This document shows, piece after piece, positions 5,190 to 21,616 of a stretch of DNA of 37,963 nt. The stretch is from Akkermansiaceae bacterium (lineage in GTDB: Bacteria; Verrucomicrobiota; Verrucomicrobiia; Verrucomicrobiales; Akkermansiaceae), in the NCBI GenBank assembly GCA_029253285.1, contig JAQWZU010000040.1:1-37963 (forward strand), written 5' to 3'. Under the pieces are notes generated by a model, which saw only the letters and a program-made list of their open reading frames with translations, ran no database searches and had not been told where the DNA came from. The number at the start of each line of letters is the position of its first letter. The stretch's first letter is position 1. Both the position numbers and the translations under genes were made by a program.

Positions 5190-6023
5190 TTACTCTCCTT
5201 CGACGGTGAGAGTCCATGTGCCGTTCTCGCCCCCGTCTTTAACGTCGGGTGTTTTGAGAGACACTGTTTCTTTCTTCAGCGGTCCGGTGAGTTGGCCGAA
5301 GTTTTGGAAGCGGACTTCATTGTGATGGAGCAGGACCGCATCGGGACTAATGGATTCCTTCCCACTCACTTCCAGTTGCAACAGGCTCTCCCCTTTTTTT
5401 GCAAGGCGCGCGACGACGCGGACGCCATATTGAATCGGAACGGGGCGACCTTCAGCTTTGAGATCGAGCACCTCGCTGAAAGTGAGGGTCTTTTCGTCCA
5501 AAGGAGTGGTGGAAAACCAGGTGAGCTCGCCGGTTTCGGCCGCCTTGTAGGAGATCGATCGGATATTGGAGGCGGTGATGTTCTCTTTTCCTGATGATTC
5601 ATCACGTTCGAATAGGATGAGGTATTGATCGCCTTTGATGAGAACCACGGTGGGTGCCCATGACTTGGAGAGCTCTCCGTAGCTATCGATTTTGTAGTTA
5701 TTTTCCCCCGCAGGAGTTTGAATACTCAGGGACCGTTGGGATTTATCCACCCCGACTCTGGAGCTATACCGGCTTTTCGCCTGATGGTTTTTGCCGGGAG
5801 CCTTCCACTTGATGGACTCGACCTCCCGAACGGTTTTTTTAGTCACCAGGGCTGGAAGCTTACTAATGATTTCTTGCACGGTGTCGTTTTCACCTCCTCT
5901 GGATTTACTTAGAAGATAGCTGCCAAACTTCTTGGGCATTTCGAGGAGCCAGGCTTCCTGGGCCCGGAGGCTGGCGCTTCCGAAGAGCGCCAGAGAACCG
6001 AAAAGGGTAAAAAATGTTTTCAT
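5190..6023 (-). CDS. Secreted protein of unknown function
   Basis: I do not recognise a family. The 277-residue product starts with a clear signal peptide (MKTFFTLFGSLALFGSASLRA, likely cut before QEA). The rest is rich in alternating strand-like segments, such as 'QYLILFERDE', 'GVRVVARLAKKG' and a final 'GTWTLTVEG', suggesting a beta-rich periplasmic domain. No catalytic motif is apparent and cysteines are absent from the mature part. The ATG at 6023 is chosen because it begins the signal peptide; an upstream in-frame start at 6074 would hide it. The gene is divergent from the YcxB-like gene and converges on the citrate synthase terminator. Confidence 0.7.
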   Translation of the reverse strand: MKTFFTLFGSLALFGSASLRAQEAWLLEMPKKFGSYLLSKSRGGENDTVQEIISKLPALVTKKTVREVESIKWKAPGKNHQAKSRYSSRVGVDKSQRSLSIQTPAGENNYKIDSYGELSKSWAPTVVLIKGDQYLILFERDESSGKENITASNIRSISYKAAETGELTWFSTTPLDEKTLTFSEVLDLKAEGRPVPIQYGVRVVARLAKKGESLLQLEVSGKESISPDAVLLHHNEVRFQNFGQLTGPLKKETVSLKTPDVKDGGENGTWTLTVEGE

Positions 6024-17518: not shown

Positions 17519-18394
17519 ATGCTTCGCGTAAATGGAGAATTGATCGATCCGAATCTGGTGGAAGAAACCTTTTCCCGTATTAAGACTGAGGCCGAGCAAC
17601 GGCTGCAAATTTCTTGTTGTGAACGCGACCCGGAATTTCAGGAACAAGCCGAGCGGGAAGTAGCGGACTCCATTCTCATCGCCCAGGAAGCCGAGAAACG
17701 TTATCCCGAGATTTCCGAAGACGAGATCACACCCAAGCTTAAGGAGATGATTGATCTCTACCGCGAACACGGTGCGTCCTGGGAAATGCTGGAGGCCCAG
17801 CGCGATATGATGCGGCACGAGATTTCAGCATCGATGCGGATGGACAAGTTGATCACCGAACTCACCGGCGGCGACGAATTGGCGACGGAGGAGGAGATCG
17901 ATGCCTTCTACCAGGAGCACATCAATGAATACCGGTCGCCTGCGGAGGCTCGCAGCCTTCACGTCATGAAAAATCTCAACGAGAAGCTCGCTCCGGCGGA
18001 TGTTTTTGCGCGGATGTGTGAGTTGCGTGAAGAGGCGCTGCAGGAGGATGCCGATTTTGAAAAGATCTGCGAACGGGAAACAGACAAAACTTCCAAAGAG
18101 ATTGACCTCGGTTGGATTCCTTTCGACAGGCCTACCAATCCCTTTGAGTCTGTTCTCTTCTCGCTTCGCGAGGGTGAAGTCTCACCGGTCATCAGCTACG
18201 AGCACGCGCTGCACCTCATTAAGATCACTGGGCTCAAGCAGGCTGAAACCGCTCCAATGGAGGAAATTCGTGAAGAACTCGAGCAACGCACCATCGCCCG
18301 AAAGAAGCGCAAAGTTCTCCAGACGCTCGCCGAGGAACTCCGGAAGGACGCCACTATCGAGACGGTGGATTACTCCGAGGAGATGGAGGAGTAG
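17519..18394 (+). CDS. Parvulin-type peptidyl-prolyl isomerase
   Basis: The 291-residue protein contains a SurA-like helical N-terminal part (1-140) with 'EREVADSILIAQEAEKRYP', then a parvulin/rotamase domain at about 144-240. That domain shows 'DLGWIPFDRPTNPFESVLFSLREGE' in two blocks and 'HALHLIKITG'. Parvulins catalyse prolyl isomerisation and SurA-like members help outer-membrane proteins fold. There is no obvious signal peptide from the ATG at 17519, so location is uncertain; it may be cytoplasmic. It lies 43 bp before the DUF3570 barrel gene on the same strand and could be cotranscribed with that cluster, which would suit a foldase for a barrel protein. Confidence 0.85.
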   Translation: MLRVNGELIDPNLVEETFSRIKTEAEQRLQISCCERDPEFQEQAEREVADSILIAQEAEKRYPEISEDEITPKLKEMIDLYREHGASWEMLEAQRDMMRHEISASMRMDKLITELTGGDELATEEEIDAFYQEHINEYRSPAEARSLHVMKNLNEKLAPADVFARMCELREEALQEDADFEKICERETDKTSKEIDLGWIPFDRPTNPFESVLFSLREGEVSPVISYEHALHLIKITGLKQAETAPMEEIREELEQRTIARKKRKVLQTLAEELRKDATIETVDYSEEMEE

Positions 18395-18437: not shown

Positions 18438-19583
18438 GTGAAATACGTTTTTGGCGCACTCCCGCTTCTCAGTACGGTATCCAGTTACGGGCAGGATGCC
18501 CTGAAGTATCGTTTCCAGCTATACGACGAAGAGGACGGTCGCATTGATGTCGAGTCCCACTATCTTGATTATCGTCTGGAGGGGGAGTCAACGAGTTTCA
18601 GTCTGCGCCTTGCGGTCGATAGCCTTTCGGGAGAGACTCCAACCGGGTCGCATTCAAGGAGCGATCCTGATCTACTCAATCCTACCCAATGGGATTTTTC
18701 TTCAATCGAAGATGAGCGCCGAGTTGTTGTAACTACGCTGGAGCAAGAGGTGGATGAATATACTCTGACTTTCGAATATGCCCGAAGCATTGAGGATGAC
18801 TATCGCTCGAGTGCCTTCACTGGAAAAGTGAGTCGTCAATTCAATCAGAAAAACACCACCGTTACTGCGGGGATCGCTTATGCTGATGACACTGTGATCG
18901 CGACGGGCTTTACAAGTATTCCATTTGACCGAGACAAAGATAGCCTTGATTTGAATCTCGGATTCTCACAGATTCTTTCGACCAATACCATATTGGATCT
19001 CAATATTGGCTATGGTCACAGTGAAGGATACCTTGCCGATCCCTACCGCTTGATCTCTGATACGTTCATTCGTAATGAAGTGCTGAGAGCTCGGGAGGTT
19101 CCCGAAAATCGGCCGGGTGAATTAGATCGATTTGTCGCAAAGGCGACATTACGGCACTATCTTGAACCAGCAAATGCCGCAATACAGGCTTCGTATCGCT
19201 TCTTTGCCAATAGCGATAGTATTGAAGGCCACACTGCGGAACTGAAATGGATTCAGCAGGTCAACCCGCGGTTGAGTGTGACGCCTTACGTGCGTTATTA
19301 TCAACAAACGAAAGCCGATTACTATTATCCAACACTGACTGGAACTGGAATTGTTGGTCATGGGAGTAATGATGGAAGTGGTGCGCATTATTCATCGGAT
19401 TACCGCCTCTCTGCATTTGATTCCTTAGCCTATGGCGTGCGCCTGGCTTGGGATGTTCGTAATGATCTGACCTTGGACATCCAGTGGGAGCGTTATGAAA
19501 TGGATGGCCGAAGTTCGGGGACGCCGGACATCTTTTTTCCGACCGCAAATGTGATTTCCTTGGGAGCACAATGGAGATTTTAG
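18438..19583 (+). CDS. DUF3570 outer-membrane beta-barrel protein
   Basis: The 381-residue product starts at GTG with a signal peptide (MKYVFGALPLLSTVSSYGQ). It consists of repeated amphipathic strands and ends in Phe ('VISLGAQWRF'), as expected for an outer-membrane barrel. The block 'GRIDVESHYLDYRL' followed by 'LRLAVDSLSGETPTGS' is characteristic of DUF3570. Residues 61-67 (DSLSGET) resemble the DxxSGAT sequence that ApbE enzymes flavinylate, with Ala replaced by Glu. The ApbE gene starts one base after this stop, so the two proteins are surely coexpressed. The function of DUF3570 is not known to me; a role in outer-membrane redox or small-molecule transfer is inference. Confidence 0.85.
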   Translation: MKYVFGALPLLSTVSSYGQDALKYRFQLYDEEDGRIDVESHYLDYRLEGESTSFSLRLAVDSLSGETPTGSHSRSDPDLLNPTQWDFSSIEDERRVVVTTLEQEVDEYTLTFEYARSIEDDYRSSAFTGKVSRQFNQKNTTVTAGIAYADDTVIATGFTSIPFDRDKDSLDLNLGFSQILSTNTILDLNIGYGHSEGYLADPYRLISDTFIRNEVLRAREVPENRPGELDRFVAKATLRHYLEPANAAIQASYRFFANSDSIEGHTAELKWIQQVNPRLSVTPYVRYYQQTKADYYYPTLTGTGIVGHGSNDGSGAHYSSDYRLSAFDSLAYGVRLAWDVRNDLTLDIQWERYEMDGRSSGTPDIFFPTANVISLGAQWRF

Positions 19584-19584
19584 G

Positions 19585-20532
19585 ATGTCCGCTGCTGATC
19601 TCACCGCTGGTCTTTTTAAGCTGCGCTTCAAGGCGTTGGGGACGGAGTGTATCGTGCAATTCCGAACGCCTTCGGTCGAGGGCGCCAAATCTTTTCGGGC
19701 TGCCGCGCTCGCCTGGATCAAGGACTTTGAAAATACCTGGTCGCGATTCAAGCCGGACAGCCTGTTGAGCCGGATCAATGCGGGGGCGGGAAAGGAGTCT
19801 TTCGAACTCAACGAAGTTCAGGAACACGTCTTGAAGCTTTGTGAGCATACCTATCGCTTCACCAACGGCTTGAATGATCCCACTTCATTTCCCCTAACCC
19901 TGCTCTGGGATCAGGCTGCAAAGGAAGACCGGCTTCCGGCTGAAGAAGAAATTTCCGAAACCAAAAAGCTCGTTTCATGGCCGTTGGTCGAATGGGGGGA
20001 GGGAAGTGTTTTTCTGCCAGAGAAAGGAATGGCGCTGGAGATTGGTGGCTTCGGAAAAGAATACGCGGTGGATCAGTTGATTGCCTTGGCGAAGCAGCAT
20101 GAGATTCCCGATGTCCTCGTCGATCTCGGTCGCGACCTCGCCACCTTGGGCGAGCCCCCGCACGGGCCATATTGGGTGGTTGGGGTCGAGGATGCCACGA
20201 AGGAAGACACTCCGCTTCATCGTCTCGCCTTTACAGGGAAGGCGATGGCCACTTCCGGAAACGGCCGGCGGTTTCGAACAATTGGAGGGAAGAAATTCGG
20301 GCACATCATGGATGCTCGCTCCGGTGTTCCTGCTGAAACTGACGTGCTCACCGCATCCTGTCTCGCCGACGATTGCCTCACTGCTGGATTGCTATCCACG
20401 AATGCCTGTATTTTGGGCGTAGAGGGGGGACTAAAAGAAATTTCGCGTCATTTCGGAACAGATGCTATACTTCAAACGATACAACAGACACACTACACTA
20501 CAACAATTCACCGCCATGTCCTTGCCCACTAG
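19585..20532 (+). CDS. ApbE-type FAD:protein FMN transferase
   Basis: It transfers FMN from FAD onto a Thr or Ser of a target protein, using Mg2+. The 315-residue protein shows the ApbE signatures: 'FENTWSRFKPDSLLSRIN', 'LEIGGFGKEYAVDQ' around residues 151-164, 'VDLGRDLATLG', 'ATSGNGRRF' and 'GHIMDARSGVPA'. 'ASCLADDCLTAG' follows, with the metal-binding Asp. No signal peptide or lipobox is visible from the ATG at 19585, although most characterised ApbE enzymes work in the periplasm; location is therefore open. The gene begins 1 bp after the DUF3570 stop, and its 3' end overlaps the start of the DUF4266 gene by 17 bp. Confidence 0.9.
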   Translation: MSAADLTAGLFKLRFKALGTECIVQFRTPSVEGAKSFRAAALAWIKDFENTWSRFKPDSLLSRINAGAGKESFELNEVQEHVLKLCEHTYRFTNGLNDPTSFPLTLLWDQAAKEDRLPAEEEISETKKLVSWPLVEWGEGSVFLPEKGMALEIGGFGKEYAVDQLIALAKQHEIPDVLVDLGRDLATLGEPPHGPYWVVGVEDATKEDTPLHRLAFTGKAMATSGNGRRFRTIGGKKFGHIMDARSGVPAETDVLTASCLADDCLTAGLLSTNACILGVEGGLKEISRHFGTDAILQTIQQTHYTTTIHRHVLAH

Positions 20533-20731
20533 ACTCCTGATCATCTTACCATGTCTCCTGACTTCCTGTACTGTGGTCTCCACGCCGGCGGAACGGGCCA
20601 ACCTCGCAAGTAAGGTGATGAAACCCGAGCGTGATCCGCTTGGGTCTGCCATGTCTGATCACATGTTTTTCTCCCGGGAAGCCTCTCATGGTGGAAACGG
20701 AATTGGCGGCGGCGGCTGCGGTTGCAACTAA
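20516..20731 (+). CDS. Small DUF4266 lipoprotein with Gly-rich CxCN tail
   Basis: The 71-residue product has a signal peptide ending in a lipobox (LTSC, Cys18). It then carries 'DPLGSAMSDHMFFSREA' near 40-56 and a Gly-rich end 'GGNGIGGGGCGCN'. This is the DUF4266 pattern, in which the terminal tail is the most conserved part. Known members sit beside DUF3570 and ApbE genes, as here. The two tail cysteines (Cys68, Cys70) could bind metal, form a disulfide or be modified; none of this is shown by the sequence. Translation from ATG 20516 begins inside the ApbE gene. An upstream in-frame start at 20462 would place 18 non-signal residues ahead of the lipobox. Confidence 0.85.
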   Translation: MSLPTRLLIILPCLLTSCTVVSTPAERANLASKVMKPERDPLGSAMSDHMFFSREASHGGNGIGGGGCGCN

Positions 20732-20749
20732 TCTAGAGAGATTCAAATA

Positions 20750-21616
20750 ATGAAAGCACGTCTCTACTACGAGCGCTCAATGCATGCGCTTACCAGCTCG
20801 TTGGCCATGTTCGCCCAACGCCTTCCTTTTATTAAGAATATTTGCCCGCTTCTGGGGTCGCCCTTGAGTTTGAAAGTTACTACTCCAATGGCGGTGGGTT
20901 TTGTGAGTACTCACAGCCTGTCGGGACAAACGATCGTGATTGAGCCAGAAGATGATACCTTCACAAATCCTACCGAAGCCCAACTCAATGAAGAATTTTC
21001 ATGGAGTTTTACGACCAATAGATACAACATGCGGGATGTGTCCTCTGAGGGGCTCCCTGAGGGATTGTCGATAGAAATTGGCACTGGAATCGATTTTGGA
21101 TTTTCCAAGATTGTTGGGATTCCTACTGAGTCTGGTGTGTTTGACGTGACTCTTGTTGCGTGGAGATTTGCAAATCTTGGTGGGCAGAGCACAGCTCCTT
21201 ATTCTCTCACCATCAATGTTGCTGGTCCGGCCGATCCCTTTGCAGAATGGCGCGAGGAAAATTGGAACGGAGCTGAGTTAGATGATCTGGCTATCTCGGG
21301 ACCCAATGCCGACCCGGATAATGACGGTTTGGAAAATCTGCTGGAGTTCGTTCTCGATCTTGACCCCAAAGAACGCTCCAAAATGCCGGGCGAATTTGTG
21401 GTCGATCCTGATGACGATTCGATGTTCCGCTATGAAATCCCTCTGAGTGCCGACGCCGAGGAGTTGAATATCGGTTTTCAAGAAAACAGTGGTTTGAATC
21501 CCGCCCAATGGACCGCTGTCAGTGAAGCCGGAATCATTCGGACAGAATCAAAAATTGTCTTGAGTATTCCCAGAGCACCAGGCCGGAAATTTTATCGTCT
21601 GCGCGTTGCTCTTTAA
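20750..21616 (+). CDS. Secreted Ig-like protein with calcium-binding-like segment and C-terminal tail
   Basis: The 288-residue product lies 18 bp after the DUF4266 gene and probably belongs to the same operon. Its first 60 residues are an unusually long leader with two hydrophobic stretches ending 'GFVSTHSLSGQ'. An Ig-like domain (about 65-160) follows, with 'GLPEGLSIEIGTG' and 'IVGIPTESGVFDVTLVA', a pattern typical of putative-Ig (He_PIG-like) repeats. A thrombospondin type-3-like stretch (DPDNDGLENLLEFVLDLDP) lies near 187-205, and the beta-rich tail ends 'KFYRLRVAL'. The tail matches those at 1-205 and 7229. It may be a surface partner of the barrel or the lipoprotein, but its role is unknown. 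Confidence 0.72.
   Translation: MKARLYYERSMHALTSSLAMFAQRLPFIKNICPLLGSPLSLKVTTPMAVGFVSTHSLSGQTIVIEPEDDTFTNPTEAQLNEEFSWSFTTNRYNMRDVSSEGLPEGLSIEIGTGIDFGFSKIVGIPTESGVFDVTLVAWRFANLGGQSTAPYSLTINVAGPADPFAEWREENWNGAELDDLAISGPNADPDNDGLENLLEFVLDLDPKERSKMPGEFVVDPDDDSMFRYEIPLSADAEELNIGFQENSGLNPAQWTAVSEAGIIRTESKIVLSIPRAPGRKFYRLRVAL

Follow-up and report, generated by a model that had tools for sequence, protein, structure and literature searches.

Gene Content of the Locus

The window analyzed here is the whole stretch of 37,963 nucleotides of contig JAQWZU010000040.1 from the Akkermansiaceae bacterium assembly GCA_029253285.1 (Verrucomicrobiota), in which a four-gene operon encodes a DUF3570 protein, an ApbE-family transferase of flavin mononucleotide (FMN), a DUF4266 lipoprotein and an immunoglobulin (Ig)-like protein. 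The genes and the positions of interest within them are the following:

18438-19583, + strand: DUF3570, GTG start, 381 amino acids (aa), PF12094 with E 7.2e-59; outer-membrane beta-barrel, presumed FMN carrier
18618-18638, + strand: DSLSGET, residues 61-67 of DUF3570; ApbE target-motif position by alignment, with acceptor Thr67 preceded by Glu66
19585-20532, + strand: ApbE-family FAD:protein FMN transferase (FAD, flavin adenine dinucleotide), 315 aa, PF02424 with E 1.7e-57 and 195.4 bits against a cut-off of 25.6
20059-20061, + strand: ApbE Glu159 (GKEYA), Gly in canonical ApbE
20254-20265, + strand: ApbE S224-G225-N226-G227, the catalytic Ser, then Asn-Gly
20302-20304, + strand: ApbE His240, catalytic base position, aligned with FmnB His273 (numbering by own count)
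20386-20388, + strand: ApbE Gly268, in place of the catalytic Asp that binds Mg
20516-20731, + strand: DUF4266 lipoprotein, ATG start, 71 aa, PF14086 with E 6.2e-18, C-terminal GGGGCGCN (CXC)
20750-21616, + strand: Ig-like protein whose conserved N-terminal leader is shared by its homologues; candidate second client
20912-20932, + strand: HSLSGQT in the Ig-like protein (residues 55-61), resembling a flavinylation motif; alternatively a signal-peptidase region

The gap between DUF3570 and ApbE is 1 base pair (bp), ApbE and DUF4266 overlap by 17 bp, and a gap of 18 bp separates DUF4266 from the Ig-like gene. Checked on the sequence, the coordinates, single strand and spacings agree with the original prediction, which had read the four genes as a candidate flavin-modified outer-membrane system. 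DUF3570, ApbE and DUF4266 all exceed their Pfam cut-offs and are encoded jointly, as in the known system of these three families, while the Ig-like protein has in Pfam a He_PIG match only (17.4 bits, under the 24-bit cut-off). The window ApbE is a family member by sequence, and canonical transferase action is putative. As had been predicted, the FMN_bind proteins, the usual ApbE clients, are missing from the window; those of the genome are encoded on other contigs (C75, C97).

The operon belongs, as a divergent form, to the known DUF3570/ApbE/DUF4266 flavinylation system, and it is classified here as a variant of that system because the gene content fits, although the literal target motif does not. 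Flavinylation of DUF3570 by ApbE, as well as clusters of DUF3570, ApbE, thioredoxin and DUF4266, were described by Meheust (2021), and the DUF3570 of Chlorobium luteolum is flavinylated at [S/T]GA[S/T] sites (PMC8238504). Both the grouping and the client proposed as new in the original prediction had therefore been published in 2021. Its expectation that the client lies inside the operon agrees with the pairing of ApbE and DUF3570 and with the C. luteolum result, which make a client within the operon, presumably the barrel, most likely; the lipoprotein, offered as the other choice, finds no such backing, as no [ST]GA[ST]-like motif was seen by eye in DUF4266, only the C-terminal CXC. The published clusters share with the window the same families, DUF3570 as the ApbE substrate and a small, secreted DUF4266 with a conserved C-terminal CXC (PMC8238504). 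In contrast to these clusters as described in that source, the window locus has neither thioredoxin nor DsbD, its ApbE lacks a signal peptide and has a Glu/Gly active site, its DUF3570 has the non-canonical motif SGET, and a conserved Ig-like partner is added. A thioredoxin-like gene is not universal there either, being found in 183 of 285 DsbD clusters (PMC8238504). The words "barrel", "immunoglobulin" and "verrucomicrobi" do not occur in the main text of PMC8238504, which was also the only source returned by a literature search for the words DUF3570 or DUF4266. New beyond the published core are an ApbE subfamily that is tied to DUF3570, has the Glu/Gly signature and lacks an export signal, a drifted target motif, a split operon and the conserved Ig-like partner. 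The SGET in place of the canonical motif, the altered ApbE without signal peptide, and the Ig-like gene as a partner with its own candidate motif had not been seen in the original prediction.

Association of ApbE with DUF3570

The searches covered 288 Verrucomicrobiota genomes as the phylum sample, 260 genomes of the host family and 27 of the host genus, the window genome being counted in both of the latter. Matches of at least 280 bits with a profile of the operon-type ApbE were taken as strong, the next match having 232 bits. There are 29 strong matches in 26 of the 288 phylum genomes, and all 26 are among the 30 genomes with DUF3570. Within 500 bp of a DUF3570 match lie 27 of the 29; the two non-adjacent copies both belong to genome G283, where the DUF3570 locus lacks ApbE. 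Therefore, the DUF3570-ApbE grouping is not due to chance, and the finding that would have spoken against the original prediction, an ApbE equally common away from DUF3570, was not obtained. The four DUF3570 genomes without operon-type ApbE comprise three in which an outgroup DUF3570 is next to an ApbE whose N-terminus is signal-like, and one with a marginal match (G180).

Beyond the phylum sample, 564 loci from named genomes were confirmed. In most of the best 80 of these the same genes occur together, and 76 of the 80 are outside Verrucomicrobiota, nearly all in Gammaproteobacteria; for 10 of the 80 no ApbE match was present in the DNA retrieved. The marine bacterium Kangiella aquimarina is one of the carriers of the operon. 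No DUF4266 was found in IMG/VR in the close-relative scan.

Two other types of locus were observed in the phylum. In loci L097-L100 the genes are ordered DUF4266-DUF3570-ApbE, the arrangement of Gammaproteobacteria, and the motif is a canonical LTGAS; this type is an additional locus in three host-genus genomes (G490, G491, G493) and is also found in G468, of another genus, and these extra loci were possibly acquired from outside. The outgroup operons L062, L063 and L064 encode DUF4266, DUF3570 and ApbE, with thioredoxin in two of the three; their DUF3570 proteins carry VSSAS and QSGAS, and their ApbE proteins have the Asp and a hydrophobic N-terminus. Because these operons carry an Asp-bearing, signal-like ApbE, two forms of the flavinylation system coexist in the phylum.

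Active Site and Location Signal of the ApbE Subfamily

The subfamily alignment has 131 rows, corresponding to 127 distinct sequences; L166-L169 share contigs with L097-L100. Glu159 and Gly268 are present in 131/131 subfamily rows, against Gly and Asp in 7/7 canonical rows, two further rows being unreadable because position 268 is gapped or shifted in register. Wherever both positions could be read, the change of Asp to Gly is paired with that of Gly to Glu. Gly268 corresponds to Asp301 of FmnB, Asp285 of Vibrio cholerae and Asp280 of Escherichia coli (numbering by own count on the alignments), of which Asp301 binds both Mg ions in FmnB (PMC8906456) and D280 binds metal 1 in E. coli Ftp (PMC4767422). 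Glu159 occupies the Gly position after the conserved Lys of GGxxKG and adjoins the position of the E. coli metal-2 ligand E169. The catalytic triad Asp-Ser-His is consequently incomplete in the window ApbE, with Ser224 and His240 present and Gly268 for Asp. Across the subfamily, the catalytic Ser is kept in 130/131, His in 131/131 and Thr272 in 129/131 rows, and Asp184, at the position of FmnB Asn216, another Mg contact (PMC8906456), is invariant. Two cysteines are also conserved, Cys264 (130/131) and Cys22 (126/131), and at the position of E. coli Tyr60 the subfamily has Tyr, Phe or, once, His (Phe55 in the window). Compared with the canonical ApbE/Ftp/FmnB of V. cholerae, E. coli and Listeria monocytogenes, the subfamily shares the family, the catalytic Ser and His and the Thr ligand; however, it has Gly for the metal Asp, Glu beside the place of E169, and no export signal. 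This pattern suggests that the metal carboxylate may now be supplied by the GKE loop instead of the Asp loop.

Beside the catalytic Ser, the host genus has N in 23/23 and G in 22/23 rows, whereas other Verrucomicrobiota operons have D in 30/33 and Y in 32/33. The Asp226-to-Asn change is almost confined to the host genus: it was seen in 27 of 67 Verrucomicrobiota rows, of which 23 belong to that genus, and in 1 of 70 others. Other phyla have mostly D with A/S/T at these places, paired with ordinary clients. A bump-and-hole arrangement, in which ApbE Tyr227 changed to Gly would accommodate Met, Glu or Gln in the client, was considered and is weakened by the other phyla, which mostly have Ala, Ser or Thr there and yet SGA[ST] clients. 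For this reason, direct compensation between ApbE and the client motif is only a possibility.

No signal peptide is recognizable in the subfamily, as judged by hydropathy and N-terminal length. The median start is 22 residues ahead of the core strand in the 131 rows (14 in the window ApbE), and no 15-residue N-terminal stretch exceeds a mean hydropathy of 1.6 in 131/131. By the same 15-residue measure, the other three ApbE proteins of the window genome reach 1.73, 1.71 and 1.38 (the last with a lipobox) and the three outgroup operon proteins 1.80, 1.99 and 2.09, and all of these have signal-like N-termini. ApbE is usually treated as a periplasmic enzyme with an Asp-Ser-His active site (PMC12052999 among other sources), and is typically membrane-anchored according to the same 2025 review. 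The set of Meheust (2021) had been filtered for signal peptides or lipidation (PMC8238504). Cytosolic ApbE proteins are known from Klebsiella and trypanosomatids (PMC12052999); the Klebsiella enzyme also lacks a signal peptide, but its client is a soluble fumarate reductase (PMC12052999), whereas the window client is presumed to be an exported outer-membrane barrel.

The DUF3570 Barrel and Its Acceptor Motif

An AlphaFold2 model was obtained from an alignment of the window DUF3570 and 40 relatives, and short loop hairpins were left uncounted. The model has 16 barrel strands at a mean predicted local distance difference test (pLDDT) of 78.9, and a Gammaproteobacterial relative likewise has 16 strands at 88.0. 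The even number of strands, an N-terminal hydrophobic segment and a C-terminal WRF (the last two by eye) are those of an outer-membrane barrel. In both models the motif ends strand 3 and a long loop follows, which in the window model (66-89) is of low confidence (pLDDT <50). The even-numbered connections have 2-5 residues and the odd-numbered ones up to about 36, and by the usual rule of short turns and long loops the acceptor motif is presumed to be at the outer rim, facing outward. Since the models place it there, tagging would probably occur before export; a folded barrel would hide the acceptor from a periplasmic enzyme, which fits tagging ahead of folding.

For both models, Foldseek returned generic barrels only, matches that point to a closed barrel. 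Kinship with MtrB was considered, as MtrB is the first match of the window model (E 4.5e-7, TMq 0.49); in the better model it has rank 39, behind FadL and AlgE, and the kinship was dropped because both lists are mixed barrels. The MtrCAB porin-cytochrome conduits are alike by analogy, with a barrel and a redox partner across the outer membrane, but no haem proteins were seen at the window operon and no kinship is claimed.

The motif and tree counts leave out L050 (broken gene), L057 and L058 (from another genome of a genus that was already represented), L062-L065 and L097-L100 (loci of other types), and L134 and L135 (N-terminus missing), and L111 is unread in the motif counts, its chosen start falling at the motif. 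In the host genus (24 readable of 25 rows), the residue before the acceptor is Met in 13, Glu in 6, Gln in 4 and Ala in 1, as opposed to Ala in 29 and Ser in 5 of the 34 rows from other Verrucomicrobiota. The 76 loci from other phyla have Ala in 66, Ser in 7, Thr and Asn in 1 each, with 1 unread. The acceptor Thr, the Gly at -2 and the Asp at -6 are kept in 24/24 readable host-genus rows. The target motif in the host genus is thus shifted, by alignment, from SGA[ST] to SG[E/M/Q]T. The host-genus rows form one clade with a Shimodaira-Hasegawa-like approximate likelihood ratio (SH-aLRT) of 100 in a quick tree with the motif masked. The correlation between motif and ApbE represents one evolutionary event and is of little statistical weight. 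Twin-arginine (Tat) export of DUF3570 was set aside, as RR is found in some host-genus rows and not in the window. Some DUF3570 proteins (L035, L036, L037, L048, L055, L061) have a long Pro/Ser-rich insert with a second AGAT site, which may parallel the two-site arrangement of C. luteolum.

The Ig-Like Partner

A homologue of the Ig-like protein with the same leader is found in 49 of 72 loci, and the 23 without it include all of the outgroup type and all with the Gammaproteobacterial order. In the host genus, the leader has 27 copies in 22 of the 27 genomes, exactly those with DUF3570, and 26 of the 27 copies are within 5 kb of it; in the host family, the family-type (f1) leader has 32 copies in 29 genomes, of which 27 are no more than 5 kb from DUF3570. 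Conserved with the operon, the Ig-like gene is a partner and no chance neighbor. Further Ig domains were found in three of five Ig-like proteins scanned, from relatives outside the host genus, so that these relatives may be extended surface proteins.

The leader has an invariant Gln-[R/K]-x-Pro and a terminal [DNHQ]-[STA]-[LVIM]-[ASTV]-G-[AQ]-[ST], with two exceptions (Arg at the second place in one row and Thr at the third in another). This end is close, over seven positions, to the ApbE client pattern D-[STA]-[ILV]-[SATV]-G-A-[ST]. Whether it would be a second ApbE client site or a signal-peptidase site has roughly even chances on the alignment. The latter reading, in which [AS]-G-[AQ]-[ST] is a signal-peptidase I site cleaved within AGAT after AGA, and the protein is a partner and not a client, is put slightly below an even chance. 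In the 23 rows from outside the host genus, the motif is preceded by Lys or Arg (20/23) and then by a largely apolar stretch of about 12 residues, with A, V, S or T always at -3 and Ala always at -1; an A-x-A-type -3/-1 region is the textbook signal-peptidase cleavage site. However, in the 49 rows the Gly at -2 and the Ser or Thr at +1 are both fixed (49/49 each, with Ala or Gln between them), and signal peptidase is not known to require either. In the cleavage region of the operon thioredoxin (38 rows), every column is at 2.1 bits or less, whereas the leader reaches 4.32, 4.32 and 3.76 in the 23 non-genus rows. Host-genus leaders have Gln at -1 in 22/26, and the seven positions closely match the DUF3570 client pattern. 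Moreover, both proteins changed in two lineages, the host genus and L039/L057, the latter with V-G-A-T in both. Perfect lockstep of the two client motifs was looked for and not found, since L105 has SGAT in DUF3570 and TGQS in the Ig-like protein; the ApbE-less paralogue loci described below have SGQT and SGAS as their two client motifs.

DUF4266, Thioredoxin and the Upstream Neighbor

The C-terminal CXC is kept in all DUF4266 proteins listed, except for the L104 copy, cut at a contig end, and a DsbD_TM protein is present in the window genome. Of the 34 Verrucomicrobiota operons from outside the host genus, 32 have a thioredoxin gene, located downstream of ApbE or, if that gene is missing, of DUF3570. 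The thioredoxin gene is absent from 20/20 host-genus operons with ApbE, and none was found in the window operon, as originally predicted; the host-genus locus L133, which stops within DUF3570 at a contig end, was dropped from this count, its ApbE and thioredoxin states being uninformative. Four ApbE-less host-genus loci do have the thioredoxin, and their genomes (G484, G487, G489, G494) also carry the ApbE type, so the operon appears to have been duplicated and divided in some members of the host genus. The window genome has a single DUF3570 match, with the ApbE half only. A relocated thioredoxin copy was looked for in this genome and not seen, the best of six matches having E 2.7e-10 with an internal TGA, as compared with E 1e-29 to 1e-108 for the operon-type thioredoxins of the host genus. 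In the ApbE-less locus L120, the thioredoxin (5432-5904) is broken into two frames, possibly as a recent pseudogene or an assembly error.

Many of the distant thioredoxin-like frames of the host genus are broken by one TGA. In the one such frame inspected, from the window genome (L147, 781-840, contig C171), the TGA falls at the first Cys of CxxC, as FWGMW-TGA-GPC, which suggests selenocysteine thioredoxins. A selenocysteine tRNA match is also present in this genome (C2:12412-12500, 54 bits versus a gathering score of 47).

Upstream of the operon, with a 43-bp gap, a PPIC-type peptidyl-prolyl isomerase (Rotamase_2, E 1.6e-14) is encoded at 17519-18394 on the + strand, in which no signal peptide was seen by eye. 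The same gene is just upstream of DUF3570 in 16 of 18 host-genus loci with at least 500 bp upstream, a count that excludes the window and the four ApbE-less loci. It is possibly co-transcribed with the operon, and its product could conceivably hold the barrel precursor in the cytosol as a chaperone.

Proposed Mechanism and Alternatives

Taken jointly, these observations are best explained by a cytosolic ApbE that tags DUF3570 before export, in a unit of barrel, flavin and DUF4266 that moves electrons outward, an explanation regarded here as fairly probable. The cytosolic-subfamily ApbE would move FMN from FAD to a Ser or Thr of the DUF3570 preprotein, either ahead of export or while it is under way; the tagged protein would then pass Sec and be folded by the barrel assembly machinery (BAM) into a 16-stranded barrel with the flavin at the outer rim. 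The C-terminal Cys-X-Cys of DUF4266 would relay electrons between periplasmic thiols (DsbD, thioredoxins) and the flavin, and the barrel-flavin unit would carry them through the outer membrane to an acceptor outside the cell. In the host genus, the dedicated thioredoxin would have left the operon, and the enzyme and its clients would share an altered target motif. A fuller version, in which a separate ApbE class with its carboxylate in the GKE loop flavinylates both the barrel and the Ig-like leader in the cytosol, flavin reaches the cell surface in bound form, the surface conduit uses thiols and flavin instead of haems, and recognition in the host genus changed jointly on both sides (SGDY to SGNG; SGA[ST] to SG[E/M/Q][ST]), is put forward only tentatively, as the less likely form.

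Several points weigh against this explanation. The window DUF3570 has no canonical [S/T]GA[S/T], only DSLSGET with Ala changed to Glu, and in another client, replacing the Ala of this position by Val lowered flavinylation by about half (PMC12052999). The Glu/Gly subfamily could be weak or inactive, because in FmnB alanine at Mg-coordinating residues, Asp301 among them, strongly cut or abolished the activity (PMC8906456). Export of ApbE without a classical signal is possible, and the ApbE of a relative (L051) has an 11-residue N-terminal stretch with a hydropathy of 2.05. The proven C. luteolum pair was apparently made from an ApbE with a signal peptide (PMC8238504), so the C. luteolum enzyme (ABB24423.1) may be outside the Glu/Gly subfamily. 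The orientation of the barrel depends on the short-turn/long-loop rule and on discounting short loop hairpins. In the window, no gene was identified for a donor or an acceptor of electrons. Finally, the confinement to DUF3570 loci was measured with a profile built from operon ApbE proteins, and matches below the score gap were checked only partly for the signature residues; of four such loci looked at, three were readable, all with canonical ApbE.

Among the alternatives, apart from the signal-peptidase reading of the Ig-like leader given above, the one nearest in weight, although unlikely, is that DUF4266 or the thioredoxin handles metal (copper or iron) and the flavin reduces it for uptake, as an assimilatory reductase and not a conduit. 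CXC tails can bind metal, and a VIT1 iron transporter occurs in 25 of the published clusters (PMC8238504); at the window operon, however, no metal transporter was found among eight proteins scanned. It is slightly less likely still that the host-genus operon no longer flavinylates, the SGET and the changed ApbE marking a decaying or repurposed system with DUF3570 as a plain barrel. The replacement of Ala or Ser before the acceptor in 23/24 readable host-genus rows, against 0/34 in other Verrucomicrobiota, would fit such decay, as would the thioredoxin gone from the ApbE-type operons and the metal Asp absent from ApbE. Yet the Asp is missing from all 131 subfamily proteins, including those with SGA[ST] clients, the reading frames of the host-genus operons are open with gene order kept, and Asp, Gly and acceptor Thr stay fixed while the residue between them varies among M, E, Q and A. 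Least likely, and quite improbable, is that the missing signal peptide is irrelevant and ApbE acts outside the cytosol by an unrecognized route, like most described ApbE proteins; exported clients are indeed described as flavinylated by exported ApbE (PMC8238504, PMC12052999). Against it stand the absence of a strongly hydrophobic N-terminus throughout the subfamily with its short lead to the core, the signal-like N-termini of the other three ApbE proteins of the same genome, and the cytosolic enzymes of Klebsiella and trypanosomatids (PMC12052999).

If tagging by a cytosolic ApbE holds, a client-tied ApbE without export signal and without the metal Asp would mean that the attachment of flavin can precede secretion and that a rebuilt active site is possible in this family, and the Glu/Gly subfamily could give a new flavin-tag enzyme. 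Together with an outward acceptor site, the Ig-like partner makes a role of DUF3570 and DUF4266 testable, namely whether they may serve thiol-flavin electron transfer over the outer membrane.

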